From: Bacteroidales bacterium 6E
GTDB taxonomy: Bacteria; Bacteroidota; Bacteroidia; Bacteroidales; Prolixibacteraceae
Length of the DNA stretch: 64,000 nt
Assembly (NCBI GenBank): GCA_001270045.2
Contig: DF970690.1
Coordinates: 637,944 to 701,943, forward strand
Direction: 5' to 3'
The position numbers were made by a program, and so were the translations under genes. The notes below the pieces were generated by a model. It did not search any database. It saw nothing but the letters and a program-made list of their open reading frames with translations, and was not told the DNA's origin. This document shows, piece after piece, positions 1,952 to 58,914 of the stretch (its first letter is position 1; every line of letters starts with the position of its first letter).

Positions 1952-2002
1952 ATGAACAGAAATTTCGGACATTATGGTCATCATCATCCTTCCACCTGGT
2001 AG
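1952..2002 (+). CDS. hisL: Histidine-rich leader peptide of the his operon
   Basis: A 16-codon ORF encoding MNRNFGHYGHHHPSTW and ending in TAG. Four of the 16 codons are CAT (His), three of them consecutive at 1979-1987, and the ORF ends 86 bases before hisG. A peptide this rich in His directly before a his operon and an intrinsic terminator is the classic signature of ribosome-mediated attenuation: ribosomes would stall at the His codons when charged tRNA-His is scarce. The product itself is probably not functional. The upstream A-rich stretch (about 1939-1951) is typical of Bacteroidota translation starts. The ORF is too short to be called from length alone; I rely on its composition, position and the RNA structure next to it. 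Confidence 0.82.
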   Translation: MNRNFGHYGHHHPSTW

Positions 2003-2078
2003 GCCGAGATCGTGTTGTCTGTAAATAAAGGATATTATAACCTGAAAGGCTTACCAAAAACGGTAGGCCTTTTTTTAT
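1998..2078 (+). promoter_or_regulatory. his operon attenuator (antiterminator/terminator switch)
   Basis: The 8-mer GGTAGGCC occurs at 1998-2005, spanning the leader stop codon, and again at 2062-2069 as the 3' arm of the terminator. Both copies can pair with GGCTTACC at 2048-2055 through the same eight pairs, one of them G-U. A ribosome that reaches the leader stop would cover the first copy and let the terminator form. A ribosome stalled at the earlier His codons would leave the first copy free to pair with 2048-2055, forming an antiterminator with a loop of about 42 bases. The pairings are seen in the sequence; the regulatory behaviour is inferred from known attenuators. Confidence 0.78.
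2045..2078 (+). terminator. Intrinsic terminator in the his leader
   Basis: The stem AGGCTTACC (2047-2055) pairs with GGTAGGCCT (2062-2070) around a six-base loop, with one G-U pair. It extends by A-T pairs into a run of seven T at 2070-2076. It ends about ten bases before the hisG start, the normal place for an attenuator rather than for the end of the upstream gene, which stops 250 bases earlier. Confidence 0.85.
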
Positions 2079-2088
2079 TTCATACACT

Positions 2089-2949
2089 ATGCAGGAAAAA
2101 TTAAGAATTGCGGTCCAGGCAAAAGGAAGACTCAACGAGGGTTCGTTAAAGCTTTTGGAAGAGTCGGGGATTCACCTGATCTTCGGAAGCCGGAACCTGG
2201 TATCGCCAGCCAAAAATTTCCCCGTCGAGGTACTTTACCTCAGGGATGACGATATTCCCCAGACTGTAGCCTATGGGGCTGCCGATGTGGGAATCGTGGG
2301 CGAGAATGAGGTTCTCGAGAAGAAGGAGCCGGTCGAAATTATCAAACGGCTGGGTTTTAGCCGTTGCCGGCTGTCTTTGGCGGTGCCCCAGCAGGTCGAT
2401 TATACTGGCCCGAAGTGGTTTGAGGGCAAAAAAATCGCTACCTCTTACCCGGGTATCCTGAACGACTGGCTTGAAAAGAATCAGGTGAATGCCGAAATAC
2501 ATGTGATCAACGGATCGGTTGAAATTTCTCCGGGAATTGGCCTGGCGGATGCCATTTTTGACATCGTCAGCTCAGGATCGACGTTGGTCACGAACAGGCT
2601 CAAGGAGGTTGAGGTGGTTGCTACCTCCGAAGCGGTAATGGTTCGGAACCATTCGTTGTCTACCACGAAACAGGCCATCCTGGATGAGCTGATCTTCCGG
2701 TTGGAGTCGGTCCAGCGGGCTGAAGGGAAAAAATATATTCTGCTCAACGCGCCTAACGACAAGATCGCCGAAATTTCGGCCGTTTTGCCGGGGATGAAGA
2801 GCCCTACGGTGATGCCTCTGGCTGAAGAGGGCTGGAGTTCTGTCCACTCGGTCATCGACGAAAATGATTTCTGGGAAGTGATTGGCAGGCTCAAAAAGGC
2901 AGGAGCCGAAGGGATCCTGGTTATCCCGATCGAAAAAATGATTTTCTAA
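2089..2949 (+). CDS. hisG: ATP phosphoribosyltransferase, long form
   Basis: First enzyme of histidine biosynthesis: it joins ATP and PRPP to give phosphoribosyl-ATP in the cytoplasm. At 286 residues it is the long form, with its own regulatory domain, so it should need no HisZ partner. Visible features are the N-terminal RIAVQAKGRL start, the GAADVGIVGENEV segment near residue 65, and the PRPP-binding loop region DIVSSGSTL near residue 160. A C-terminal ACT-like domain (about residues 215-286, starting KKYILLNAPN) is where histidine feedback acts in the family. It is the first gene after the attenuator, and hisD follows after 10 bases. Confidence 0.97.
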   Translation: MQEKLRIAVQAKGRLNEGSLKLLEESGIHLIFGSRNLVSPAKNFPVEVLYLRDDDIPQTVAYGAADVGIVGENEVLEKKEPVEIIKRLGFSRCRLSLAVPQQVDYTGPKWFEGKKIATSYPGILNDWLEKNQVNAEIHVINGSVEISPGIGLADAIFDIVSSGSTLVTNRLKEVEVVATSEAVMVRNHSLSTTKQAILDELIFRLESVQRAEGKKYILLNAPNDKIAEISAVLPGMKSPTVMPLAEEGWSSVHSVIDENDFWEVIGRLKKAGAEGILVIPIEKMIF

Positions 2950-2959
2950 TCCACAGGTT

Positions 2960-4240
2960 ATGCAAGTTTACATCCAACCGCCCCGCCATGAGTGGCCCCA
3001 AATCCTGAAAAGGCCTGTTTTTGATGTGTCTGACCTCTATGGTAGGGTTTCGGAAGTCCTCGGTGATATCCGTAGCCGGGGTGAGGCTGCCCTTCGAGAG
3101 TATACCCTGAAATTCGATGGTGTTGAAATCGACCTTTGGGAAGTCACCCGTGAAGAGTTTGAATTGGCTAACCGGATGATTCCCGGTGAACTGAAGGAGG
3201 CCATCCGGATAGCTGCCGAAAACATCAGGGCTTTCCATGCCTCCCAGATTCCGGATGTTACCCACATCGAAACCATGCCGGGCGTGGTTTGCTGGCAAAA
3301 GGCGGTGCCTGTCGAGAAGGTGGGACTCTATATTCCCGGTGGCTCGGCCCCTCTCTTCTCCACTGTCCTGATGTTGGCGGTCCCTGCCCGCCTGGCCGGA
3401 TGCGGAGAGATTGTGCTTTGCACTCCCCCCGACAAGCAGGGAAAGGTCCATCCTGCCATCCTGTATGCCGCCTCTCTCGCTGGTGTGACCCGGGTATATA
3501 AGCTGGGTGGAATCCAGGCAATCGGTGCCATGGCTTACGGTGTTGTCACCCCAAAAGTGGACAAGGTGTTCGGGCCGGGTAACCAGTATGTCATGGCTGC
3601 CAAACAGCTGGTGGGCTACAGCGATGTGTCCATTGACATGCCTGCCGGCCCTTCGGAAGTGGCTGTGATGGCCGATGAATCGGCCGTGCCGTCGTTTGTT
3701 GCGGCCGACCTGCTTTCACAAGCCGAACATGGGCCCGATAGCCAGGTAATCCTTGTCCTGAAGGGTGAATCTTTGCTGAAGCCTGTCATGGATGAGGTAC
3801 AACGGCAACTTGAACTACTGCCGCGCAGCGGTATCGCGGCCAAGGCTCTGGAGAACAGCCGGGTGGTTGTTTTGGATGACGATGGGGATATGCTTGACCT
3901 GATCAATGGATATGCACCCGAGCACTTGATCATCAGCATGCGGAATTACAGCGATATCGCCTCCCGGATCCAGCATGCGGGTTCTGTTTTCCTGGGGAAT
4001 TATACCCCGGAGAGCGCCGGTGACTATGCTTCAGGAACCAACCATACCCTGCCGACCAACGGATGGGCCCGCTCTTATAGCGGTCTCAACATGGACAGCT
4101 TTATGAAGAAGATCACCTTCCAGGAGATTACGGCCGAAGGATTGCAAAACCTAGGGCCTGTGGTCGAAACCATGGCTGGTGCTGAATTACTCGATGCCCA
4201 CAGGAATGCGGTTTCCGTCAGGCTGAAATCCATTTCCTGA
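2960..4240 (+). CDS. hisD: Histidinol dehydrogenase
   Basis: Catalyses the last two steps of histidine biosynthesis, the NAD-dependent four-electron oxidation of histidinol to histidine. The 426-residue length is normal for the family. Recognisable blocks include YIPGGSAPLFSTVLM (near 122), the cofactor-region segment KLGGIQAIGAMAYG, the FGPGNQYVMAAK segment, DMPAGPSEVAV, LLSQAEHGPDSQ with the conserved zinc-region Gln and His, the APEHL motif near 320, and SAGDYASGTNHTLPT near 355. It lies in the operon after hisG with hisC downstream. No oddities seen. Confidence 0.97.
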   Translation: MQVYIQPPRHEWPQILKRPVFDVSDLYGRVSEVLGDIRSRGEAALREYTLKFDGVEIDLWEVTREEFELANRMIPGELKEAIRIAAENIRAFHASQIPDVTHIETMPGVVCWQKAVPVEKVGLYIPGGSAPLFSTVLMLAVPARLAGCGEIVLCTPPDKQGKVHPAILYAASLAGVTRVYKLGGIQAIGAMAYGVVTPKVDKVFGPGNQYVMAAKQLVGYSDVSIDMPAGPSEVAVMADESAVPSFVAADLLSQAEHGPDSQVILVLKGESLLKPVMDEVQRQLELLPRSGIAAKALENSRVVVLDDDGDMLDLINGYAPEHLIISMRNYSDIASRIQHAGSVFLGNYTPESAGDYASGTNHTLPTNGWARSYSGLNMDSFMKKITFQEITAEGLQNLGPVVETMAGAELLDAHRNAVSVRLKSIS

Positions 4241-4310
4241 CCGCTTGTTTTAATAAATGTTCCGATGTTTGGGAAATCGTTCCATACTTAAATTTGAAAA
4301 TGTCCTTTAT

Positions 4311-5348
4311 ATGAATCTCGATACTCTGATCCGAAAAAATATACTTGACCTGAAGCCTTATTCGTCGGCCAGGGATGAATTCTCGGGCGAGGCCATGGTT
4401 TTTCTTGATGCCAACGAAAACCCCTGGAACCAGCCCTATAACCGTTACCCCGATCCTTTGCAAAGGGAGCTGAAGGAGAAAATTTCCCGAATAAAGGAAA
4501 TCCCAGTGGACTCCATTTTTCTGGGAAACGGGAGCGATGAGCCAATCGACCTGCTGATTAAGGCTTTCTGTGAACCTGGCATCCACCATATCATCCAGAT
4601 GGAACCTACTTACGGTATGTACCAGGTGGCTGCCGGGATCAACAATACACCGGTCAGGCGGGTACCTCTTGCTGATAGTTATCAACTGGATGTTCCTGCC
4701 ATGCTGGCTGCAGTCGATGGAAACACCCGGATGATCTTCCTCTGTTCACCCAACAATCCCACCGGAAACCTTTTGCGTAAGGACGATATTGAGGCAATCC
4801 TGTATGGTTTTGATGGGCCCGTGGTGGTCGATGAGGCGTATATTGACTTCCGGCCTGAAGGTTCGTTCCTGCCTTTATTGGGGCAGTACGACAACCTGAT
4901 TGTCCTGCAAACCTTCTCCAAGGCATGGGGCATGGCCGGAATCCGTCTGGGAATGGCGTTTGCCCGTCCCGACCTGATTGCGATACTTAACAAGATCAAG
5001 TATCCGTATAACATCAATATCCTGACCCAGGCCAAGGCGCTGGAACTGCTCGACAACGCCGACGAAATGTCTCAATGGGTATCTGTCCTGGTGAAGGAGA
5101 GGGAGATCCTGGCCGCACAGTTGACGAACCTCCCTTTTGTCGAGAAGGTATGGCCTTCAGACGCCAATTTTCTATTGGTGAAGGTGAAAAATGCCCGGGG
5201 GATATATAATTACCTCGTTTCGAAAGGGATTATCATCAGGGACCGCTCACGGATCCTTTTGTGCGAGGAGAGCCTCCGGATTACCGTTGGCTCCGAAGAA
5301 GAAAACAAGATTTTGTTACAGGCCCTGCAGTCGATGCTGGAGGTTTAA
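4311..5348 (+). CDS. hisC: Histidinol-phosphate aminotransferase
   Basis: PLP-dependent enzyme that transfers an amino group from glutamate to imidazole-acetol phosphate, giving histidinol phosphate. It has 345 residues if started at the ATG at 4311 ([10 protein letters not shown]), where homologues usually begin; the open frame continues upstream to 4257 without family-like sequence. Visible features are [23 protein letters not shown], the CSPNNPTGN motif, VVDEAYIDF, and [15 protein letters not shown], which contains the Schiff-base lysine. It sits between hisD (70-base gap) and hisB (11-base gap). Confidence 0.96.
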
Positions 5349-5359
5349 AACAGATAAGA

Positions 5360-6481
5360 ATGAAAAAGGCTTTGTTTATTGACCGCGACGGTACCCTGAT
5401 CGTCGAACCTGCCGATGAGCAGATTGATTCGCTCGAGAAGCTGGAGTTTATTCCCGGGGTGTTCAGGAACCTATACCATATCAGGCAGAACCTGGATTAT
5501 GAACTGGTAATTGTCAGCAACCAGGACGGACTGGGGACTACTTCTTACCCGGAGGATACCTTCTGGCCGGCACAGAATAAGATGCTGAAGGCTTTCGAAA
5601 ACGAGGGGGTGGTCTTTGATGATATCCTGATCGACCGGACTTTTCCGCACGAGAACGCCCCGACCCGCAAGCCGGGACTGGGGATGATGAGTGCCTACCT
5701 CGACGGCAGTTATGACCTGCCGGGAAGTTTTGTGATCGGAGACCGTTTGACGGATGTCATCCTGGCGAAGAACCTGGGAGCAAAGGCAATCCTGATCAAT
5801 GACGGTTCACTGTCCGGAGAGCTTCGTGAAAAGGGACTTGAAGGGGTTTGCGTGCTGGTCACTACGTCATGGGACGAAATCTATGCCTGTGTGGCAGCCC
5901 CTGAACGCACCGCCGAGGTGAAACGGACAACCCGTGAAACCGATATCTATTTGAAAATCAATCTTGACGGGACTGGCAAGACACAAATTTCCACCGGATT
6001 GCATTTCTTCGACCATATGCTCGACCAGATCGGCCGCCATTCTGGTTGTGATCTCACCGTCCAGGTGAAGGGCGACCTGCATGTCGACGAGCACCATACC
6101 GTCGAGGATACCGCCATCGCGCTGGGACAGGCACTGGGACAGGCACTGGGCAACAAAAAGGGCATCGAACGATACGGATTTTACCTCCCCATGGATGATT
6201 GCCTGGCCTCGGTGGCCATCGATTTTGGTGGACGCCCCTGGCTGGTGTGGGACGCTGCTTTCAAACGGGAAAGGGTGGGCGATGTACCCACCGAGCTTTT
6301 TCACCATTTCTTCAAATCATTTTCCGACGCTTCCCTGAGTAACCTGAACATCAAGGTAGAAGGCCAGAATGAGCACCATAAGATCGAGGCCATTTTCAAG
6401 GCTTTTGCCAAGGCCATCAAAATGGCCGTTCGTCGCGATGTTTTCAATTTCGAACTGCCATCCACCAAAGGGATGCTGTAA
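5360..6481 (+). CDS. hisB: Bifunctional histidinol-phosphatase / imidazoleglycerol-phosphate dehydratase
   Basis: A 373-residue fusion. Residues 1-165 are a HAD-family histidinol-phosphate phosphatase: FIDRDGTL carries the nucleophile Asp, VSNQDG follows, then TRKPG, and GDRLTDV supplies the metal ligands. Residues about 180-373 are the IGP dehydratase, with the metal-binding motifs [21 protein letters not shown] and [13 protein letters not shown]. Together they catalyse two non-consecutive steps of the pathway. The zinc-loop cysteines of the E. coli phosphatase half are absent here: the segment before TRKPG reads [10 protein letters not shown] chose ATG 5360; the frame runs upstream into hisC in an overlapping register. 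Confidence 0.96.
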
Positions 6482-6497
6482 TAAGAACCAGATTGTT

Positions 6498-7382
6498 ATG
6501 CAAAGTATCAAGACATTACAGGAGAAGAAAAACACGGCCATCCTCCTGATCCATTGCCCCGATCGCCAGGGAATCCTGGCTACTGTCACGGAGTTCCTGA
6601 ACCGGAACAAGGGGAACATCATATACCTCGACCAGCATGTCGACCGGCAGGAGATGATCTTTTACATGAGGGTAGAGTGGGAGCTTGACCGTTTTGCCAT
6701 CCCTTCCGACAAGATCGGGGAGTACTTCGATACGTTGATCGGACGCCCCATGCAGATGGTCTGGAAACTCTATTTCTCGGCCGAAATCCCAAGGATGGCA
6801 CTGTTTGTCTCCCAAATGCCGCATTGCCTGTTCGACATCCTGGCACGCTATACGGCAGGGGAGTGGGACGTGGAGATTCCCCTGATCGTCAGTAACCACC
6901 AAAAGCTGGAGCCTGTGGCCAAAAGGTTCGGTATCGACTTTCACCATATTCCCGTTACAAAGGACAATAAAGCGGAGCAGGAAGCCCTCGAGCTTAAGCT
7001 CCTCGGGGAATACCGCATCGATTTTATCGTCCTTGCCCGCTATATGCAGATCCTGAGCAAGGGGTTCGTCGATAGGTTTCCCAACCGGATCATCAATATA
7101 CACCACTCGTTCCTTCCGGCATTTGCGGGGGCTAAACCCTACCATGCGGCCCATGAAAGGGGTGTCAAGATCATCGGGGCCACCAGCCACTATGTGACTT
7201 CCGACCTCGACGCCGGGCCGATCATCGAGCAAGATGTCACCCGCTGCAGCCATGCCGACACCGTGGAAAACCTGATCCGAAAGGGGCGCGACCTTGAGAA
7301 GATCGTCCTCTCCCAGGCTGTCTTCAAGCATCTTGAGCACAAGATCCTTGTCTTCAACAACCGGACGGTCGTATTTAACTGA
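6498..7382 (+). CDS. purU: Formyltetrahydrofolate deformylase
   Basis: Hydrolyses 10-formyl-tetrahydrofolate to formate and tetrahydrofolate, balancing one-carbon pools. It has 294 residues. The N-terminal ACT domain (about 12-95) starts ILLIHCPDRQGIL. The C-terminal formyltransferase-type domain (about 95-280) carries NIHHSFLPAF (catalytic Asn/His region) and the distal Asp in LDAGPIIEQD. I took ATG 6498, 16 bases after hisB, because the earlier frame only overlaps hisB. Its place as the last gene of the his cluster is unusual. A link is plausible because histidine synthesis releases AICAR, whose reuse consumes 10-formyl-THF, but that is inference. Confidence 0.95.
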   Translation: MQSIKTLQEKKNTAILLIHCPDRQGILATVTEFLNRNKGNIIYLDQHVDRQEMIFYMRVEWELDRFAIPSDKIGEYFDTLIGRPMQMVWKLYFSAEIPRMALFVSQMPHCLFDILARYTAGEWDVEIPLIVSNHQKLEPVAKRFGIDFHHIPVTKDNKAEQEALELKLLGEYRIDFIVLARYMQILSKGFVDRFPNRIINIHHSFLPAFAGAKPYHAAHERGVKIIGATSHYVTSDLDAGPIIEQDVTRCSHADTVENLIRKGRDLEKIVLSQAVFKHLEHKILVFNNRTVVFN

Positions 7383-7555
7383 CCGGATTACCCCAATTCC
7401 GTTGATAGTGCTCGAGGCAGATTTCGGGTATTTGGATTTTGTATACAGAAAAATTGTCAGATCTGTACGATTTGGTGGAAATATTTTTTGATAAAGGCTC
7501 AACCATATGATCCTGATTCCGTAATTTTATTTCATAAACCAAATCAACCATTATT

Positions 7556-9304
7556 ATGAACAGCATGTGGAGCCCGGCCAGACGATTGACATGGATCATT
7601 CCGGCCATTTTTTTCATGTTACAGAATGTCAATGCACAGAGGCCTGATTTCCTGTGGGCCAAAGGATTGCTGGGTGCCGAACAGGTGACCCCGACCGCAG
7701 TGGCTACCGATGCCCTCGGAAATGTGGTCATAGGAGGTGTCTATTCGGGTACCGTGGATTTTAATCCGGGGAGCGGTGTAACCAACATGACAGCCAATGG
7801 ATACGACGATATCTTTTTTCTCAAGCTGAATGGTTCCGGTGAATTTCTCTGGGCTTTCAGTCTGGGCGGTGAATCCTCAGAGTATCTCGAAGGGATGGCC
7901 CTGGATCCCCAGGGAAATATATACGTCACGGGGCATTATTCAGGGGAGGTTGATTTTGACCCGGGACAAGGTGTCCATAAACTTGCGGAAAATGGGGGCG
8001 CCGATATTTTTATCGCCAAATACAATTCTTCCGGAGCCTATCAATGGGCCCATTCTTTCGGGAATGAATATTCCGATGCCGGAACCCATATCCATATCGA
8101 CAAGGCAGGAAATGTACTGGTAGTGGGTGAGTTTCAGGATCCAACCGATTTTGACCCAGGTGCGGGTGTTGCCATCCTTGATCCTTTTGGAATGGATACC
8201 TTCATTGCCAAATATACACCCGCAGGTGCCCTGGTCTGGGCTAGAATGATTGGTGGTACAGGCAATGTCAACGGATACCACGTGACATCCGATGCACGAA
8301 ATAATGTCTACGTGACCGGTAGGGTCCGCAACAAGGTTGATTTTGACCCGGGGCCCGGCACACATGAAATTACCACGACCAATAATGAGGCTTTCCTGTT
8401 AAAACTGAATGCCGATGGACTGTTCAAGTATGTCGTGCTACCGGGCGGATCGGTAACAAGCAAGAATTTTAATAACCACAGGCCTGTCGGTGCCGACAAG
8501 GATGGAAGTGTTTACCTGGCATATGACTTTAAGTCAAGCGCCGATTTCAATCCAGGAACCGGTACGGTCACCCTCACCAGCAATGGCTTTGAAGATATAT
8601 TCCTTCAGAAGCTCGATTCACTGGGGAATTTTATCTGGGTGAAACAGGTGGGTGGCTCCAGTACCGACCTGGTGAACGATTTGATTGTCAGTGAATCGGG
8701 AGATCTTTTTGTTACCGGACGATTCAATGGGACGGTCGATTTTGACCCTGGGCCCGGCGTTGTCAATCTGAATGCCAACGGAGACTGGAATACGGGTATA
8801 TACATCGCACGATATAACAAGAACGGGGAGTTGGTATGGGCATACGATGTCAAGAGGAATGACGATACCTGGCCATATGGCGACGGCAACGCCCTTTGCC
8901 TCGACAAGGACGGAAATCTACTGGCTATCGGTGAATTTTCGGGAACCTATAATTTTAACCCAGGAAATACATCCGTGCTGTTATCTTCAGTGACAGAGAA
9001 TGTCCTTAACGGTTTTGTCATGAAGCTGAAGGGTACCCTTTCCGGTATGTCAATCACGGAATCTGGTTCCGGTGTCATATTGTTTCCCAACCCATTCAAT
9101 GACCAGCTCGAAATCAGGTCTGTCGAAAGCCTTAAGGATGCCCGACTGACGATCAGAAATCTCTCCGGACAGATTATTTACATTAAATCCTCCATGTATG
9201 GCAATAATTTTGTTGCTGACCTTCCCGTTATTCCGGCTGGAATTTATTTATTTGAAGTCGTGAATGGATCCCAAAGATCCACAGGGAAGATTGTCAAAAA
9301 TTAA
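7556..9304 (+). CDS. SBBP-repeat beta-propeller protein with T9SS sorting domain
   Basis: A 582-residue secreted protein with a signal peptide ending near residue 27 (FFMLQNVNAQ). About eight repeats of 45-65 residues follow, each with the pattern G-N-hydrophobic-hydrophobic-G-x-F/Y-x-G-T/E-V-D-F-N/D-P-G and a K-hydrophobic-D/N-x-x-G-x-F-x-W strand. This is the SBBP/beta-propeller family. Residues about 500-582 are a T9SS type A C-terminal domain, beginning ILFPNPFNDQLEIRS and ending GKIVKN. It should therefore be exported through the Por machinery and released or attached at the surface. Its role is unknown. It separates purU from the hisH block and is followed after 11 bases by a thioredoxin-like gene. 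Confidence 0.85.
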   Translation: MNSMWSPARRLTWIIPAIFFMLQNVNAQRPDFLWAKGLLGAEQVTPTAVATDALGNVVIGGVYSGTVDFNPGSGVTNMTANGYDDIFFLKLNGSGEFLWAFSLGGESSEYLEGMALDPQGNIYVTGHYSGEVDFDPGQGVHKLAENGGADIFIAKYNSSGAYQWAHSFGNEYSDAGTHIHIDKAGNVLVVGEFQDPTDFDPGAGVAILDPFGMDTFIAKYTPAGALVWARMIGGTGNVNGYHVTSDARNNVYVTGRVRNKVDFDPGPGTHEITTTNNEAFLLKLNADGLFKYVVLPGGSVTSKNFNNHRPVGADKDGSVYLAYDFKSSADFNPGTGTVTLTSNGFEDIFLQKLDSLGNFIWVKQVGGSSTDLVNDLIVSESGDLFVTGRFNGTVDFDPGPGVVNLNANGDWNTGIYIARYNKNGELVWAYDVKRNDDTWPYGDGNALCLDKDGNLLAIGEFSGTYNFNPGNTSVLLSSVTENVLNGFVMKLKGTLSGMSITESGSGVILFPNPFNDQLEIRSVESLKDARLTIRNLSGQIIYIKSSMYGNNFVADLPVIPAGIYLFEVVNGSQRSTGKIVKN

Positions 9305-9315
9305 AACCATAGGTT

Positions 9316-9861
9316 ATGAGGTATCTGATTGGATTCGTTGTATTGTTTTTTCATTCCTCCATTATGTTTGCACAGGTCAAAACCCAGGAAGTGCCGGCCG
9401 ATTATGGCTATATCGTGAAAATAGGCCAGCAGGTGCCCGATTTCGGCATGAAGCTGACCGATGGCAAAACCGTCAGGATGAACGACCTTCGGGGCAAGGT
9501 GGTCATGTTGCAGTTCACGGCCAGTTGGTGTGGCGTTTGCCGCAAAGAAATGCCGCATATCGAAAAGGACATCTGGCTGAAGCACAAGAATAACCCTAAA
9601 TTCGCCCTCTACGGAATCGACCTCGACGAGCCGCTTGACAAGGTGGTGAAGTTCGGCAAGGATGTCGGAATCACCTATCCGCTGGCTCTCGATCCGGCCG
9701 GAAGCATTTTCTACACTTTTGCCGAGAAGGGCGCCGGGGTGACCCGTAACGTCATCATCGATACCGACGGAAAAATCGTATTCATGACGCGCCTTTACAA
9801 GGAAGAGGAATTCAGCGAAATGGTCGGCGTCATCGACCAGCTGCTGGCCAAGGCCAAATAA
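9316..9861 (+). CDS. TlpA/ResA-like thioredoxin-fold protein, exported
   Basis: A 181-residue periplasmic thiol-disulfide protein. The signal peptide (about residues 1-20, ending IMFAQ) precedes a thioredoxin fold with the active site FTASWCGVCRKEMP, i.e. CGVC, near residue 74, and a cis-proline-region GVTRNVIIDTDG segment. The order AsWC..C then GIDLDEP is typical of AhpC/TSA-Redoxin members of the TlpA group, which reduce disulfides or support cytochrome c maturation. Partner unknown. It overlaps no gene and is 52 bases upstream of hisH, so it may share a transcript with it. Confidence 0.87.
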   Translation: MRYLIGFVVLFFHSSIMFAQVKTQEVPADYGYIVKIGQQVPDFGMKLTDGKTVRMNDLRGKVVMLQFTASWCGVCRKEMPHIEKDIWLKHKNNPKFALYGIDLDEPLDKVVKFGKDVGITYPLALDPAGSIFYTFAEKGAGVTRNVIIDTDGKIVFMTRLYKEEEFSEMVGVIDQLLAKAK

Positions 9862-9913
9862 ACCGTTCTCTGGCGGAGCATTCGTTATCCGCCGGGATAT
9901 TTGTCAAGGGAAT

Positions 9914-10519
9914 ATGCCTATGAATGTAGTCATCATAAAATACAATGCCGGCAATATTGAGTCGGTCAAGAATGCGCTCAGGCGAATCGGGGTCGATGCG
10001 GTCATCACTGCCGACCACGATGCGATCCGCAAGGCCGACAAGGTCATCTTTCCCGGGGTGGGGGAGGCTTCCACGACCATGGCCTACCTCAGGAAGGAAG
10101 GACTGGATCAGTTGATCCCTTCGCTCACCCAGCCTGTGCTTGGCATCTGCCTTGGCCTCCAGCTGATGTGCAGCCACTCCGAAGAGAATGACACCCCCTG
10201 TCTGGGAATATTCGATGAACGGGTGAAGCGGTTTATGCCTGAAAAGGGAAAGGAATTTACCGACAAGGTGCCTCACATGGGATGGAATGCCATTTTTCAC
10301 TTGAAGAGTGGAATTTTTTCCCCGGCAATGGAACAGCAATACGTTTACTTCGTACATTCGTATTATGCCAGCGTGGGTGAACATACGGCTGCCACCTGCA
10401 ACTATATCGTGCCTTTCAGCGCTGCATTGCACAAAGATAATTTCTATGCCACCCAGTTTCACCCCGAGAAAAGCGGTGATGTCGGGTCGCTCATCTTGAA
10501 AAATTTTATCCACATCTGA
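9914..10519 (+). CDS. hisH: Imidazole glycerol phosphate synthase, glutaminase subunit
   Basis: Glutamine amidotransferase subunit that supplies ammonia to HisF for formation of imidazole glycerol phosphate and AICAR. It has 201 residues. The class I triad is visible: the nucleophile Cys in GICLGLQLM (near residue 80) and the His/Glu pair in QFHPEKSG (near residue 181). The start could also be the ATG at 9920. Unusually, hisA and hisF do not follow; argB does, after 13 bases. An inverted repeat GGCGGA/TCCGCC at 9872-9893 lies just upstream without a T-run, so it is not an obvious terminator. Confidence 0.95.
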   Translation: MPMNVVIIKYNAGNIESVKNALRRIGVDAVITADHDAIRKADKVIFPGVGEASTTMAYLRKEGLDQLIPSLTQPVLGICLGLQLMCSHSEENDTPCLGIFDERVKRFMPEKGKEFTDKVPHMGWNAIFHLKSGIFSPAMEQQYVYFVHSYYASVGEHTAATCNYIVPFSAALHKDNFYATQFHPEKSGDVGSLILKNFIHI

Positions 10520-10532
10520 TTTTATTATTCAC

Positions 10533-11306
10533 ATGGACAGGCTGACGATTGTAAAAGTGGGAGGAAAAGTGGTTGAAGAGCCGGAGTTGCTGGATCGGTT
10601 GCTCGACGATTTTGTCCGGGTAACGGGTTACAAAATGCTGGTGCATGGTGGCGGTAAGGCTGCTACACAGATTGCCGACCGGCTCGGACTGGAAACCAAA
10701 ATGGTTGACGGAAGAAGGATCACCGATGCCGACATGCTCGAGGTGGTCACCATGGTATACGGCGGGCTGGTCAACAAGCGGGTAGTGGCCGGTTTGCAGA
10801 GCAGGAACGTGAATGCCCTCGGGCTTTCGGGTGCCGATCTTGATTTGATCAGGGCACGAAAAAGACCTGTGGAAGATATCGATTACGGTTTTGTGGGGGA
10901 TGTCGAAAATATCAATACCCGTGAACTCAGGCTGTTGCTCCGCGAGAATGTGGTGCCGGTAGTAGCACCGCTGACCCACAACGGAAAAGGCCTGATCCTG
11001 AATACCAACGCCGATACCATAGCCGCGCACATGGCAATCGACCTGGCCAACCATTTCAAGGTTTTCCTCTTTTACTGCTTCGAGAAAAGGGGTGTCCTGT
11101 CTGATCCGCTCGACGATAACAGCGTATTGCCCGAACTGAATGAATCGGAGTTCCTGCGTTTGCAGAACCTGGGGACCATCAGCAGCGGCATGATACCCAA
11201 ATTGCAGAATGGCTTCAAGGCCCTGCATAGCGGTGTCTCCGAAGTTCTTGTCACCAACCCGGAAAACTTTTCCCGGGGACGGGGGACCCGTTTGTTACGG
11301 GGATAA
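10533..11306 (+). CDS. argB: N-acetylglutamate kinase (possibly N-succinylglutamate kinase)
   Basis: Amino-acid kinase family enzyme of arginine biosynthesis that phosphorylates the gamma-carboxylate of an N-acylated glutamate. It has 257 residues. Visible motifs are VKVGGKVV at the N-terminus, the substrate-loop VHGGGKA, the LSGADLDLI segment, the ATP-site Asn/Asp in LNTNADTIAAHMA, and SSGMIPKL near residue 215. Bacteroides fragilis is known to use succinylated intermediates in this pathway, so the acyl group cannot be fixed from sequence alone. It is the last gene of the block and runs into a terminator hairpin. Confidence 0.92.
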   Translation: MDRLTIVKVGGKVVEEPELLDRLLDDFVRVTGYKMLVHGGGKAATQIADRLGLETKMVDGRRITDADMLEVVTMVYGGLVNKRVVAGLQSRNVNALGLSGADLDLIRARKRPVEDIDYGFVGDVENINTRELRLLLRENVVPVVAPLTHNGKGLILNTNADTIAAHMAIDLANHFKVFLFYCFEKRGVLSDPLDDNSVLPELNESEFLRLQNLGTISSGMIPKLQNGFKALHSGVSEVLVTNPENFSRGRGTRLLRG

Positions 11307-11370: not shown

Positions 11371-13812
11371 TCAGAACCTCAGGTCCAGTCCCACCATAAA
11401 ATGTCGTCCTGCCTGCGGGAAATATCCATCCATCTTGTACCTTTCGCCTCCCAGAATGTAACTGTATACCCATGCATTGCTTTCATATGTGGCGTCGGAC
11501 AGGTTGTTGACCATCAGCCTGAGGGTCACATCCCCTGCAAATCGTGTCCGGAAGGTGTAATCGGCCAGCAGGTTGCTGACAAACCAGGGATCGAGCGACC
11601 GGTCGTCCGATGCGGTGTTGTCGATGTATTGCTTCCCTGTATAGTTGGATATCAATGAGATGCTCCCTTTGTCGCTGGGAGTCCATTTCAGCTGACTGTT
11701 GGCCAGGAACCCTGGAGAGAAGGAGAGGTCGGTCGATCCCAGACCAAATGCCTGTTGCCCGCCGTTGTCCCAGTCGTCGACATACTCGGTGAAATCCATG
11801 ATCCTGCTCCTGCTGAATGTGGCGGTGGCATCCCATCTTAACGTGGAGGCTATTTTAAGGCCCCACATCAGCTCCACGCCTGCGCGATAGCTGTCATCCA
11901 CATTGACCATGACCGGTGCCCCTACGTCGTTTATTTTTCCTGTCAGCACCAGCTGCCGGTCATATAGCATATAGAACAGGTTGACCCCTCCGGTGAAGTT
12001 GATGCTGCTGTAGTGATATCCGGCTTCCAGGTCGTTGAGGGTCTCATGCGAGGGGAGTTGTCCCGGACTTGCATCCGTGAAGTTGTCGCGGTTGGGCTCA
12101 CGGCTTGCACGGGCAAATGAGAGGTATGCCTGCTGCCTGTCGGTGGGCTGGTAGAAGATGCCGGCCTTGGGATTGAAGAAATGGTAGTCGTGGTCCTGGT
12201 CGAGCGTCGCAAGGTCATCATCAATGCCGTCGATGCCATAGCTGATCTGCCGGTACTGAAGGTCGGCAAACAGGTTGATCCTGTCTGAAATGGCCTGGTT
12301 CAGCTTGATGTAGTTGTTGATGTCGGTCTTGACGCCCAGGTTCCGGTACCATTCAAAATCTTTGGGATTGTCGCCCATGATGCCTGCCCAGAGGATCGTG
12401 CCGTAATGACTGCCATCATACTGGTGCAATCCCCCTCCCCATGAAAGGTCGGTCTTGCCCTTCCGGTAATTCAGCGAAAATACTCCACCGTAAAAGTCGT
12501 TGTCGAGCCATTTGCGCCTGACAAGGTCGGTCCTTGATACTTCCGTATCCCCGATCACCGGCTTTTCCATGCCGTAATCCGCGAATTTGGCGTTGCCCTT
12601 GAACTGTTCGTAATAGCCCAGCCCGATGGTATAATGCAGCGAGGCATTGAGGTTGAGGTGGCTGTTCACCATGTGCGAAAAATGGAGCTGGAAATGGTCT
12701 TGCTGGTACTGGTCCACCTGGTTTTCGTAGGTATACAGGTTGTATGTGCGTGGGTTCGAGGCGATCATTTCGGCCGTTTCCTGTGGGGTGTAAAGCCAGT
12801 GTTCTTCATAGCGTTTCATCCCTTCGAGGTCGTTGTCCAGTCTTACCGACGGCACCCCGTTCCAGGCCTGGTAGGTGGTCTGCGTACCTCCGAACACCAC
12901 CGCCTTGATCACGGTCGTCGGGGTATAGTAGCCTCCCGAAACGAAGAAGGATTTCAGGTCGCTGAATGCCCGGTCAATGAATCCGTCAGAGGATATCTTC
13001 GAGAGGCGGGCATCGAGGGCAAACTTGCCGTTGATCAGACCTGTCCCTGCAGAGATGCTGTTTTTCAGCGTATTGAACGTTCCCCCGGCGGTCCTGATTT
13101 CCGCGTACGGTTCAGGGTTCAGCGAGAGGGTCTGGAGGTTGATGGTGGCCCCGAATGAGGCTGCACCATTTGTTGATGTTCCCACCCCGCGCTGAATCTG
13201 GATGTTGTTGGTCGAACCGGCCAGGTCGGGCTGGTCGACAAACCAGGTGCCGTGCGATTCGGAGTCGTTGAGTGGAATGCCGTTAACCGTCACGTTAATA
13301 CGGTTCAGGTCGGTGCCCCTGATCCTGAAATTGGTGTACCCGATTCCGGCACCTGCATCGGAGGTGGCCACAAACGAGGGCGAAAGGGCCAGCAGGTAGG
13401 GGATGTCCTGCCCGAAGTTCCGCTCCCGGATCTCCTCGCCGGTAATGTTCACATAGGCAACGGGGGTCTTGTCGCCGGCCAGGGTGGCCGATACCACGAT
13501 TTCCCCGGTGTAGACGACGGTTGGGGTGAGCACCACCTCGATGTCGCGCGATTGGGTCAGGTCGACCTCAAGTTCTGTAGGTTCGAAACCGATAAAGCTG
13601 ACTGCCAGCATGTATTTTCCCGGTTTCAGGTTTTTGAATTCGAATCGCCCGTCTCTTCCCGCCGATACCCCCGAATAGGTGTCGCGGATCACCACGCTCG
13701 CACCGGGCAATGGTTCTTCTTCCCGGTCTTGCACGATCCCACGCAGGGACACCTGCGACCAGGCCACCACGAACAGCAACTGCATGACCAGCAGTAAACT
13801 CCACTTTTTCAT
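11371..13812 (-). CDS. TonB-dependent outer-membrane receptor, probable thiamine-compound importer
   Basis: An 813-residue outer-membrane receptor. After the signal peptide (ending VVAWSQ, about residue 20) comes a carboxypeptidase-regulatory-like domain (about 22-105, LRGIVQDREEEPLPGASV). A plug domain follows at about 115-225 (FRIRGTDLNRINVTVNGIPL, then IQIQRGVGTSTNGAASFG), and then a 22-strand-type barrel that ends in the aromatic FMVGLDLRF. Such receptors take up scarce ligands with energy from TonB. The substrate is inferred from a TPP riboswitch in the 5' leader: thiamine, its phosphates or a precursor. No pnuT or thiamine kinase lies next to it. It has its own promoter at 13979-14009. 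Confidence 0.9.
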   Translation of the reverse strand: MKKWSLLLVMQLLFVVAWSQVSLRGIVQDREEEPLPGASVVIRDTYSGVSAGRDGRFEFKNLKPGKYMLAVSFIGFEPTELEVDLTQSRDIEVVLTPTVVYTGEIVVSATLAGDKTPVAYVNITGEEIRERNFGQDIPYLLALSPSFVATSDAGAGIGYTNFRIRGTDLNRINVTVNGIPLNDSESHGTWFVDQPDLAGSTNNIQIQRGVGTSTNGAASFGATINLQTLSLNPEPYAEIRTAGGTFNTLKNSISAGTGLINGKFALDARLSKISSDGFIDRAFSDLKSFFVSGGYYTPTTVIKAVVFGGTQTTYQAWNGVPSVRLDNDLEGMKRYEEHWLYTPQETAEMIASNPRTYNLYTYENQVDQYQQDHFQLHFSHMVNSHLNLNASLHYTIGLGYYEQFKGNAKFADYGMEKPVIGDTEVSRTDLVRRKWLDNDFYGGVFSLNYRKGKTDLSWGGGLHQYDGSHYGTILWAGIMGDNPKDFEWYRNLGVKTDINNYIKLNQAISDRINLFADLQYRQISYGIDGIDDDLATLDQDHDYHFFNPKAGIFYQPTDRQQAYLSFARASREPNRDNFTDASPGQLPSHETLNDLEAGYHYSSINFTGGVNLFYMLYDRQLVLTGKINDVGAPVMVNVDDSYRAGVELMWGLKIASTLRWDATATFSRSRIMDFTEYVDDWDNGGQQAFGLGSTDLSFSPGFLANSQLKWTPSDKGSISLISNYTGKQYIDNTASDDRSLDPWFVSNLLADYTFRTRFAGDVTLRLMVNNLSDATYESNAWVYSYILGGERYKMDGYFPQAGRHFMVGLDLRF

Positions 13813-13869
13813 TTTTTAGAAATTTTGGTTAAAGAACTAACCAATGAGGCAGGAATAATCCTGTTTTAC

Positions 13870-13964
13870 CTTCCCTCCGCCGGCATTATCCGGATCAGGT
13901 TTTAAGGGTATGATCTCAGCCTGTATTTTAACCCGGTTATTACCGGGCTTAGGCACCCCATTGA
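13870..13964 (-). ncRNA. TPP riboswitch (THI element)
   Basis: On the minus strand this stretch carries the conserved THI-box blocks in order: GGGGTGCC, a variable hairpin (CCCGGTAATAACCGGG), GGCTGAGATCA, TACCC, then ACCTGATCCGGATAATGCC and GGCGGAGGGA. The stem and binding segments match the thiamine pyrophosphate riboswitch family. It lies about 55 bases before the receptor ATG, so TPP binding probably lowers receptor expression, through the start region or premature termination. I see no strong terminator between it and the ATG, which favours translational control. Confidence 0.95.
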
Positions 13965-13978
13965 GTGAAATATCGGCG

Positions 13979-46550: not shown

Positions 46551-46559
46551 ACTGTGACA

Positions 46560-49500
46560 ATGAAAAAAATGGATATTATGAATACAACGAACATATATAA
46601 TCAAATAAATGGTGGCAGATACCTGGATTGCAGATGGATTAAATCCCTTCCCGATATTCCCATCAGGAATGTTGCCTATGCTGCCAGGATGGTTTTCCTT
46701 ATGGTACTTATTATTTTTGTTGCAAACAGTGAGCTGTTTGGACAGTCCTTCTCGGCAACCTTGTCGTCAAACCAATTGTTTAAACGGCCTAGTCCCGGAA
46801 CATCAAACTGTGGTGGGACCTATGGGACATTTACCAGCGTCAGCTCGAATGCCTCGACCGATTATGCCTATGCAACACAATCTTTTACCATAAGTGCCGC
46901 TGGCAATTATACAATTACGGTTACTGCCAGTACAGCAGGCGATCCAATGCTGCTGGTCTATGGCAGTTTCAATCCGTCATCTCCAACCAGCGGTTTTATA
47001 GTGGGTGATGATGACAGTAATGGAAGTCTATTGCCAAAAATTGGTAGTTGTAATAACTATTTTTCATCTGGCACCTATACACTTGTGGTGACAAGTTATA
47101 GCGCGGCCACCAGAGCTGGTACGGTAAATTTCAATATTTCTGGCGCAGGTACCGCTACCATATTGCCAACCGTATCCACGAATACGGCCAGCTCTGTCAC
47201 CTCTACCAGTGTAATCCTTGGGGGTAATGTAAGTGCCGATGGTGGGGCGACCGTCTCGGCACGTGGGGTGGCCTGGGGTACATCTTCAAACCCAACCTCG
47301 GGAACACCCATGGGGAGCGGAACGGGTTCCTTTAGCCAGACAATCAATGGACTAACACCAGGTACTACCTATTATGCCAGGGCTTATGCCACCAACAGTG
47401 TTGGCACGGCTTATGGCCCACAGATATCCTTTACGACCCAGAATTATACCCCCCCCAGCGTTACAACGAATAGTGTGACCAATATTGGCCTTACCGCTGC
47501 AACTTTTAACGGAAATGTGACAAACACAGGTGGCCAGAGTGTCTCTCGGGGCTTTCAGTACAGCACCAATTCCTCGTTTAGTGGAGCAATTACCCGAACA
47601 ATTTCAGGAACCCAGGGGACAGGATCTTTCTCGTACAATGAAACCTCCCTTACAGGATCGACTCTGTATTATGTAAGAGCATGGGCGTCGAATAACGGAG
47701 GCACTACTTATGGCAGTGCAACCAGTTTTTATACCGATCATACCGTTACATATACATCCGGAGCAAATGGCACATTGAGTGGTTCTACATCTCAGACCGT
47801 TGATCACGGTGGATCAGGCAGTCCTGTAACGGCTGTTCCAAATGCTGGCTATCATTTTGTGCGCTGGAGTGATTTTAGTACATCCAATCCGCGAACTGAT
47901 GTCAACGTAACCTCAAGTTTCACGCGTACGGCAACATTTGCCATCAATAATTTCAGGTTTGCTGTCCAACCAGGTAACAGGGTAGCCGGTGTCCAAAATT
48001 CGTTTACGGTTGAAGCAATCGACAATTTGGGCAATCGGGTTACCAACTCTGACCGTGCAATTTCAATCGATGTAAAAAAAGCTGACGGAACCACGATCGA
48101 AACTTTGTCGGCAAACCTGTCATCAGGCTTTGCAACAGTTTCAGGCCCATCCATAACACAAACAGGTAACTATTATCTGTTTGTAAGCGATGCAGGCGGT
48201 GGTGTCAATGGAACCTTTAATTCCTTGCAATCTTCGACTTTCACCGTGACACCGGCAGCCATACATCATTTCACCGTATCCGGCATAACCGATCCCCATA
48301 AGGCCGGCGAAACCACCAGCCCGACTGTTACGGCCTATGATATGTATGGCAATATGAAATATGACTATACAGGAACGATTTCTTTCCATACCGACAACGT
48401 AAGTGCCAAACCCGATAAGCCGACCGTGCTTCCCGTCAATTATTCGTTTACGGGAACCGACCAGGGAACAAAAACTTTCACCAACGGCGCAAACCTGAAA
48501 CAATATGGCGAAAACTTTTTCGTGCAAGTCAAAGACACAGAAGTAACCGAAGCTTCTGGCAGGCAGGAAGGTATTTCTGTCACTTCCGCCGAACTGAACT
48601 ATTATGCCATTGCCGCCAATCCGGATGAATCAGGCAACCAGCAGGATGTAAAGGCAGGGAACGCATTTTCCGTTTTGGCTGAGCTATACGATGAATTTGG
48701 AAACAAGAAAGTCGACTATACCGGTGACCTTGATGTTAGCTTTACAAGCGATGCCTCTCCCTCGCCTCTCGGTAATGTGATTGTCATTCCTGCACCAGGC
48801 GACAGGACCTTTACCAATGGGGTTGCCACCATCCCCGGCTTTATTCTCTACAATGCGCAGGAAACCCCTGTAATTACCATCACCGAGACACTGACCGGCA
48901 GTTCAGGCACAACCGAACTTATGACAGTCTGGCCCGAAATGCTGGATAATTTCCTGGTTCAGGAAGCACCGGCCCAAAACCACGGGATAGGCGGTGTCCG
49001 TGTAACGGCAGGTGTACCCTTCTCGGTTAAGGTAACCGCCCGCGACCCGTACAACAATATTAAGCGTGACTATGCCGGATATATCAACTTCAAGTCGTCA
49101 AACGATGCGATCGTCCAATATCCAACCGGTCTCCAGCAATTTACCGTTGGTGAGGGTGCTTCTTTCAATAATGGGATCAGGATTTTTGAAAATGTTCTCA
49201 CCATTCCAACCATCGGGAGTTATTGGATCCGTGTGGCCGACTCGCCACAAGCGTTTAAAACCGGAACACTCGAGGATATTGTGGTTGGTCCCGGAATCCA
49301 GAGCCAGGTTGTGTCTGAACTGGCCTTCACGGAGCATCCCGGAATAACGACCTACCCATCAGAAAGCGTAAAAGCTGGCGATTTTGTTTCGGTCACCATC
49401 ACACCCAGAGATGCCAATGATAACCTTTTATGTGATTGCCAGTCCGTTCAGGTATTCCTGAATGGTGTCGACAAGCACAGGACAGGCACACCAGAAAATG

Positions 49501-52500
49501 GTGTTCCGGCATTGTCTCTAATCGAGGTTACCGATAACCACGACGGCACATATACAGCAATGGTTAGGGTAAGCGATATGTCGCAGACGAATGAGATAAC
49601 CGCAAGCGTTAATGGCACCACCCTGAATACCATTCTCCAGGTTGCGGTAAATGAACCCGATGCCCCATCCCTGGTGGTTTCTACCATTACCCCAGAGGCC
49701 AGCAGCATCACCACAGATGAAAATACCCTGGTAACCATCCAGCTAAAGGACCAGTTTGGAAACAACCGGCTCACCAACGACGGAACCATTTACATTAGTA
49801 CAACCGAGGGAGGATTTGGTGCCAACAACGGCATTGCCAACGGTTATGAAGCCACTTATAATGACAACGGCTCATATACCGCAACATTATATGCCAGTCA
49901 TGATGCCATTACTCATGGCGTTGGAACGGCAACCCTTTCCGTGATCGCTGATTTCACCGATGATTTGTTTGCAGATGGAGCATTAGCCCCGGTATCGATA
50001 CCAACAGTCATTATCACTGAAGGTTTGCCAAGCCTGATAACCAGCACCATTGCTGCCGATCCTGTGGAAATTACTACCGATGAGTTTTCGACTGTTACGG
50101 TTCAGTTAAAGGACCATTTAGGAAACCTCATACTCCATGACCGTGGCAGTATTGACCTGGAGACAGATGTCCTTGGTGAAATCACGGATGCCGTCTACGA
50201 CGAAAATGGCAAGTATGTGGCTTACCTGTGGGGCGATATCCGCCCTGTCAATGGTACAGGCATCTCTGTCATTTCAGGCTCATTTGCCGGAGCGGGCTCA
50301 GCTTCCGCAGTCAATGGCTATTTTAATGACGGCGGTTCACCTGCTGAAAAGACAACAGCTTCGGTAACCATTACCGAAGGATTGCCCGCATTGGATGAAA
50401 TCCAGATTACGGCTAACCCGGCGGTCATTACCACCGATGAATCCAGTATCATAACGGTTACCTTGTATGACCATCTTGGGAACCTGATCATCAATGGCAG
50501 AGGTACTGTTTCACTGTCAACCAATCTTGGTGTCCTCAGTACAGTTACCGATAATGGCGATGGTACCTATACCGCAATCCTTACCGCCGACGCTTCAGGT
50601 ACCGGAACGGCTACCATTACCGGAACGATTCTTATCGATAATGCAGGTCAACCTGTCGTAATTGAAGACAATGCAACTGTACTGATCAATGAAGGCTTAC
50701 CGTCGCTATCCATGTCTTCGGTTGCTTCAAATCCTGCCACCATGACCACCGATGGTTCCAGTACCATCACCTTGCAACTGAAAGACCAGTGGGGTAATGA
50801 TCTGACTACTGGCAGGGGAGTTGTAACCATGGAGTCAACCATTGGATTGCTTTCGGGAGTAACCGATCACGGTGACGGAACTTATACCGCAACGTTGACT
50901 GGCGATACCAGAGGAATCAATGGTACAGGCACTTCTGTAATCGATGCCTCATTTGAGGGTGATGCTTCCGCGTCATCGGTGAACGGGGACTTCACGAACG
51001 AAACATATGTTGTCATTTCCGAAGGTCTGCCAGCATTGTCCCAGATTGACATTGCGGTAAGTGACACTGAAATCACAGCGGATGAAACCAGCTCCATTAC
51101 AGTTCAACTCAAAGACCAGTGGGGCAATCTGCTGACCACAAGCCGCGGAACGATCACCCTTTCCGTAAGCCCGATCGGGGTCATTTCAACCGTGACCGAC
51201 AACAATGACGGAACATACTCAGCTACTTTCTCATTAAATGATTCTGGAACAGGCATCGCTACCATTACGGGCACAATTTCCGGTGAAGCCGATGGCGAAA
51301 TATTGGACAACGCAACAGTCGAGGTAAGCCATGGTATCGCCACAAACCTGCGTATCGACACCCAACCATCGGATTATGTCCGTGCCGGGGATGTATTGGC
51401 CATTCAGCCGGTTGTCAGCATCCGCGACGCGTTGGGAAATATCGTGACTTCCGACAATAGCACTACCGTAACTGCCAGCCGTAAGGCAGGGACATCAACT
51501 GAAACACTGAAGGGAACCGTCGCCATGACTGTTGAGGCTGGTGTGGTTACCTTTACCGACCTGAGATACGAGCTGATGGAAACCATCACCCTTGATTTTG
51601 TTGCCAACCCGGCCTTGTCAACCGTCACTTCCAACAATGTCCTGGTCGACCATAACGCAACTGTCAGGTATGAGTTTTCATCCGTTCCTGCCTATATCAT
51701 TGCTGGTGGACAACGCGGGGCGTATGTGGTTACACGCTATGATGCATACGATAACCTCGTGAATAATTCAGTCGGCGAAAACGGGGAAGACCTGATCACC
51801 GACGAGACGGTATATCTTTACACCAGCGCTGCCGACAACGACAGCGAACCGAATGTGACAAGCAAGTTCCATAGTGCAGCCACAGGAGGTACCATCGTCA
51901 CATCCATCGGCATCGCCAACGGTGCCACCAGCAAAGGGTTCTGGTATTATTCCACTGTGGCCGGACAGCATACCATATCCGCTTCTGATAAAACTCCATT
52001 GGATGTCACCGACGAGAATATCATAAATGCTGAGCATTTACTCGAAGTAAGGCCTGCCGCTCTAAGCCATTTTGTCGTAAGTGGTGTGGGAACCGATGCT
52101 GGCGGAGGCTGGACAGAGCATTATTATGGAGATGTCCAGTCGGTTACGGTAGAGGCTATCGATATCCTCGGTAACCGGAAAACCAACTACAACGGATCCA
52201 TCACTTTCAACCTGACCGACGGACAGGCGGTGGTGAATTCCAATTTCCCCCGGGACTATACCTTTACGGTCGGAACAGACAGCGACAATGGGATTCATAC
52301 GTTTGAAAATGCCATTCTGTTCACCCGACCTAGCTTTGAACACCCAAGTTATCCAACGGTAAATGAGTGGTGGGTTACGGTAATTGACAAAGCCCAGCCA
52401 TCCAAATATGGTTCGCAGGTGAAGATTAAGGTGTTGCCACGCCCGTTACTGGTAAGCATTGCCGAAACGCCCACGAAAGTATACGATGCCAATACCGGCA

Positions 52501-58814: not shown

Positions 58815-58914
58815 ACGGAAGCTGCTAGAAAAAAGAGTCGGGGTACCCATGGAAGCCTCAAGCCGAAATTGGGCCCCGGCTTCAAGTTATTCGGAAATCA
58901 TAAAACAAAATACA

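Follow-up and report, generated by a model that had tools for sequence, protein, structure and literature searches.

The window analysed here is a 64-kb stretch of DNA from the 4.4 Mb genome of Bacteroidales bacterium 6E. Near its start lies hisG (2089-2949, + strand, ATG at 2089), which encodes the long form with a C-terminal regulatory domain (Pfam HisG, 2.7e-50; HisG_C, 1.7e-29). It is the first gene of hisGDCB; the next three are hisD, a gene for an aminotransferase (hisC) and hisB. Within 2089-11306, hisGDCB is succeeded by a purU-like gene and genes for a secreted beta-propeller protein, a redoxin and a hisH-like amidotransferase, together with an acetylglutamate-kinase-like gene. The his genes are split, with hisA and hisF about 70 kb away (G000:C25:568701-570259); no second His-rich leader was found before this separate cluster. 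Elsewhere in the window, a TPP riboswitch scoring above the Rfam threshold (13855-13970, - strand) lies just upstream of a TonB-dependent-receptor-like ORF (11371-13812, - strand). Farther on, a 4086-aa ORF (46554-58814, + strand) combines 17 YDG domains with Invasin_D3 repeats, and next to it a 1436-aa ORF (58849-63159, + strand) contains repeats of the MBG and YDG types. Each has a type IX secretion sorting domain at its end, weak in the 4086-aa ORF.

A preliminary description of this DNA had placed ahead of hisG an ORF of 16 codons, four of them CAT, and this ORF is indeed present. It encodes MNRNFGHYGHHHPSTW (1952-2002, + strand), opens with ATG at 1952, stops with TAG at 2000-2002 and carries its CAT codons at 1970-1972 and 1979-1987. 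The terminator described directly before hisG was confirmed by folding (-17.5 kcal/mol, z -5.8), its full stem being 2044-2055 / 2062-2073 (+ strand; 12 pairs and a 6-nt loop, with T-rich sequence following). The T run spans 2070-2076 (+ strand), and its first four T also close the stem. A scan across 1780-2120 returned this single terminator-like site, where 0.2 were expected.

The core of the terminator 3' arm, GGTAGGCC (region IV, 2062-2069, + strand), recurs exactly at 1998-2005, where it overlaps the leader stop codon as had been reported. Only four copies exist on both strands of the 64-kb window (1.5 expected), and of 20,000 sequences made by mononucleotide shuffling of a 54-nt stretch of the leader, 6 contained the motif. 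Consensus scans also returned a weak promoter candidate, TTGACA ... TATCTTCC (1879-1910, + strand), and a loose match to the Bacteroidota -7 box, TATCATTG (1925-1932, + strand). For 74 of 188 relatives, the -7 box TAnnTTTG is located no more than 60 nt ahead of the leader ATG, with 9.1 expected.

Conservation of the leader across Bacteroidia

We gathered 279 hisG loci from Bacteroidota, mostly of class Bacteroidia, with distinct upstream DNA in 269. A short His-rich ORF, defined by three or more His codons in a run of seven, occurred in 223 of these 269 regions. Dinucleotide shuffles of the same regions gave 5-17 (about 12), and their reverse strand gave 10. A terminator-like hairpin was found between ORF and hisG at 217 of the 223 loci and was strong in 199. 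This joint conservation indicates that the predicted leader is old within Bacteroidia and no quirk of one genome. Nine Cytophagales-like loci have the leader ORF without a strong terminator, so the ORF is not always a sign of attenuation by an intrinsic terminator.

Upstream regions without a His-rich leader came chiefly from Bacteroidaceae/Prevotellaceae metagenome assemblies. Many of the regions L040-L094, mostly of this origin, lack the leader, and it looks as if control had been lost there or hisG were not the first gene. Pontibacter and similar genomes (L093, L095, L098, L208, L215, L220, L222, L223, L229) have leaders that mostly end in HHFHHSS before the stop. These leaders share a near-constant hairpin, ATTCCTC-nTnA-GAGGAAT, with the stop codon in its loop; a C-rich stretch often comes next, with no strong intrinsic terminator. 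Leaders of this type possibly work by a different mechanism, perhaps Rho-dependent or translational.

Three mutually exclusive helices

Folded alone, the leader forms a hairpin of 56 nt (1966-2021) that joins the His-codon region to the region II side through CGGACA/TGTCTG, TATGGTC/GATCGTG and CCTTCC/GGTAGG. The 5' side of this hairpin, I:II, is a Gly/His codon stretch (region I, 1966-1982, + strand) that includes the first His codons. Its 3' side contains the arm copy and, as its outer part in the folding, GAGATCGTG and TGTCTG (2006-2021, + strand). Hairpin I:II is the lowest-energy fold of the leader, which as a whole reaches -37.2 kcal/mol (z -4.1; 0 of 200 shuffles were as good).

The core of region II, TGGTAGGCC (1997-2005, + strand), thus lies within hairpin I:II and over the stop codon, and is also the 5' arm of the antiterminator. 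Positions 1998-2005 pair with 2048-2055 through 8 pairs, one of them G-U, or 9 pairs counting 1997-2056. This partner, region III (GGCTTACCA, 2048-2056, + strand), is common to regions II and IV, which bears out the earlier proposal that both arm copies compete for 2048-2055. As I:II shares the region II side, the helices I:II, II:III and III:IV are mutually exclusive. Prolixibacteraceae leaders also conserve a AAAGATATTAAC-like linker (2030-2040 in the window) that separates region II from region III. None of the three helices explains it, and it is perhaps a pause site or an unstructured spacer.

In an alignment of 71 family sequences, the terminator helix contained five pairs with compensatory changes on both sides. 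Helix II:III was paired in 96% of cells, its pairs hardly varying. Helix I:II was 91% paired and, as a helix that re-registers, gave no clear columnwise excess over shuffles. Because columnwise covariation was weak for these two helices, we adopted a partner permutation, in which each leader's partner was swapped for that of another species among 92 dereplicated leaders; neither this test nor the alignment counts model phylogeny. First swap tests, run without dereplication, were diluted by the consensus arms that leaders hold in common.

By this measure, I:II scored -15.9 with its own partner versus -12.1 when permuted (z -12.4), better than all 2000 permutations. Helix II:III gave z -12.4, or z -10.5 when the region II site was re-chosen for each swapped partner (0 of 5000 permutations as good). 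The z of -17.6 for III:IV is biased upwards, its arms having been chosen by pairing. Pairs not expected to form (1:3, 1:4 and 2:4) ranged from z -0.1 to -1.9 in the same 92 leaders. The signal stems from comparison between families and from re-registered outer helices. Regions II, III and IV change as a set between lineages: for example, most Bacteroidales have GGTAGGC / GCYTACC arms, and Flavobacteriia-type leaders have CTCAGGCG / CGTCTGAG arms that pair best with each other. The length of the exact arm copy was a weak measure of covariation (5.04 vs 4.74; 49 of 5000 permutations as good), since the arms match by pairing, including G-U, and not by identity. The preliminary description had asked that the leader ORF and its arms be conserved and covary in relatives, and the ORF counts, the permutations and the arm swaps between lineages together gave this result.

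That description had also proposed only two helices, II:III against III:IV, with a ribosome at the stop codon as the sole block of region II. Both of these helices are real, and a ribosome at the stop codon would cover region II. Against so simple a scheme, the long hairpin I:II is the lowest-energy fold and covaries between partners as a whole helix, and across Bacteroidia its outer part, outside the shared arm, still gives z -10.2. Comparison of region I with synonymous recodings likewise carried a signal for I:II, although a modest one (58 of 189 leaders at p<=0.05). The two-helix proposal was dropped once folding and partner permutation had revealed I:II, and we regard it as improbable.

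Placement of the leader stop codon

Stop codon and region II overlap in 55 of the 92 dereplicated his leaders, where 30 would be expected from random placement between the last His codon and region III. In 29 others region II ends just before the stop, giving 84 of 92 leaders with the stop codon in region II or downstream of it; in the other 8, region II comes after the stop. The known regions of E. coli trpL, our sole positional yardstick, show a different arrangement, with the stop (69-71) located 5' of region II (from 74). The textbook arms of E. coli hisL and leuL were missed by a simple best-duplex search.

The overlap described earlier thus holds in the window, but its exact frame is not fixed. 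The arm is read TGG-TAG-GCC in the window and GGT-AGG-CCG-TAA in the same-genus locus L003. In four of the five same-genus relatives compared, GGYAGGCC supplies the last codons before the stop, with peptides ending in GGRP or TGRP. As the arm bases are kept while the frame changes among species of one genus, it is the RNA and not the peptide tail that is kept.

Attenuator-like leaders with cognate codons also occur before other amino acid biosynthesis genes of the same genome. These precede ilvD (MKLFSAYIIVLVVVILGTS, L287:9240-9364, + strand; Ile/Val/Leu codons), leuA (MNSVNNISLLGIIILILWIKN, L284:1328-1460, + strand; Leu/Ile codons) and trpE (MNKKTLWWWRNNLIQYPC, L288 reverse complement 1773-1883; Trp codons). 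In each, the antiterminator arm lies over the leader stop, the trpE version being weaker. A leader was looked for before thrA in this genome and none was seen. The leaders of relatives show the same overlap of stop codon and region II in 19 of 20 cases for leuA and 27 of 29 for ilvD (46 of 49). By sequence comparison, this recurring position of the stop codon in region II is the distinguishing trait of the predicted Bacteroidota his attenuator.

Proposed mechanism and relation to known attenuators

The leader combines a short ORF rich in codons for the pathway product before the first biosynthetic gene, an intrinsic terminator between that ORF and the gene, an antiterminator II:III exclusive with terminator III:IV, and a protector helix I:II carrying the control codons, as indicated by folding and partner permutation. 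We consider it highly likely (probability about 0.9) that 1952-2078, with its helices I:II, II:III and III:IV, controls the his operon by classical ribosome-mediated attenuation of transcription. If the leader were left untranslated, I:II would form, leaving III for IV, and transcription would terminate before hisG. With histidine scarce, a ribosome would stall on the CAT codons, cover region I and open I:II. Its leading edge would lie near 1998, so that region II would be free to pair with III and no terminator would form. With histidine ample, the ribosome would reach the stop codon inside region II and cover that region, III:IV would form, and transcription would stop.

Translation, stalling, the ribosome footprint and the histidine response are the parts of this model that we infer. 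The footprint length used is a general value, not one specific to Bacteroidales bacterium 6E. Region II begins 12 nt after the start of the last His codon in the window (median of 18 nt in relatives), and this spacing is at least 9 nt in 96% of leaders and under 9 nt in 4%. Such spacing suggests that a ribosome on the His codons would cover region I and leave region II free. The conserved, covarying ORF and arms support the original suggestion of ribosome-mediated his attenuation in Bacteroidota. The attenuator very probably recurs across class Bacteroidia as a real and conserved design variant of a known mechanism.

A constitutive partial terminator beside a meaningless short ORF, with histidine exerting no control over hisG here, is less probable still than the two-helix scheme. 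What can be said for it is an absence of evidence, whereas the His-rich ORF and competing arms are conserved across Bacteroidia far above chance, and the ilvD, leuA and trpE leaders parallel them. Least probable is another RNA regulator of hisG (a T-box, riboswitch, catalogued leader family or Rho-dependent leader): Rho-dependent or translational leaders could also use a His codon run, and the nine Cytophagales-like loci without a strong terminator would suit them, but here a strong intrinsic terminator is present with a covarying competitor, and the covariance models of Rfam 15 gave no family at threshold, the best weak matches being far below.

The attenuator proposed for the window resembles the E. 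coli / Salmonella hisL leader (RF00514), which likewise has a His-rich leader peptide and a competing terminator and antiterminator upstream of hisG. RF00514 (His_leader) gave no match at the gathering threshold or at E<=10 at the leader. E. coli has seven consecutive His codons, against four CAT codons in the window leader. E. coli trpL has the same I:II / II:III / III:IV arrangement and likewise carries its control codons in region I. Among catalogued leaders, the nearest in kind is the Bacteroid-trp leader (RF01692) of the same phylum (PMC2864571), also an amino acid peptide leader, but of trp and not his; the window scores 19.5 bits against its cut-off of 49. The duplicated arm is not special, as regions II and IV resemble each other in any II:III / III:IV attenuator. 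"Complementary triples" of arms have been described for Actinobacteria, analogous to those of proteobacteria (PMC1262725), so a duplicated arm is to be expected.

Attenuators have reportedly been predicted in some Bacteroidetes/Chlorobi (Vitreschak et al. 2004). According to a survey published in 2010, no peptide-leader system had by then been demonstrated beyond Proteobacteria and Actinobacteria, apart from the atypical ermC leader (PMC2965389). In Flavobacterium psychrophilum, an expressed structured 5' element precedes hisG, is conserved in other Flavobacteriaceae and has no Rfam hit (PMC9723704). The same transcriptome gave strong clues for leader-peptide attenuation upstream of amino acid biosynthesis operons; the main text of that study gives no account of the helices of the hisG element, of how its stop codon is placed or of its occurrence outside the family (PMC9723704). 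Our literature search, which had most subscription papers outside it, found no paper giving the helices or stop placement of Bacteroidota his leaders.

In E. coli, an extra hairpin of the his leader keeps basal readthrough low, and a theoretical study from 2005 suggested that the same could be achieved by placing the stop codon far along region II (PMC1183508). The window leader differs from that of E. coli in having no such hairpin and a stop codon inside region II. We infer that leaders of Bacteroidota take the first of the routes in PMC1183508, with the stop codon far down region II. There is perhaps an even chance that this is a distinct Bacteroidota-wide design for his, leu, ilv and perhaps trp, in which the stop lies in region II, a ribosome terminating there occupies the antiterminator arm, and basal readthrough stays low with no need for the additional hairpin seen in the enteric his leader. 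If so, one of the two strategies theorised in PMC1183508 would be realised in nature by the Bacteroidota design. As the layout recurs, the theoretical rule for low basal readthrough could be tested by moving the stop codon. Regulation in Bacteroidota is still poorly charted, and a class-wide his attenuator, absent from Rfam 15 at this site, would provide a covariance-model seed and a ready reporter.
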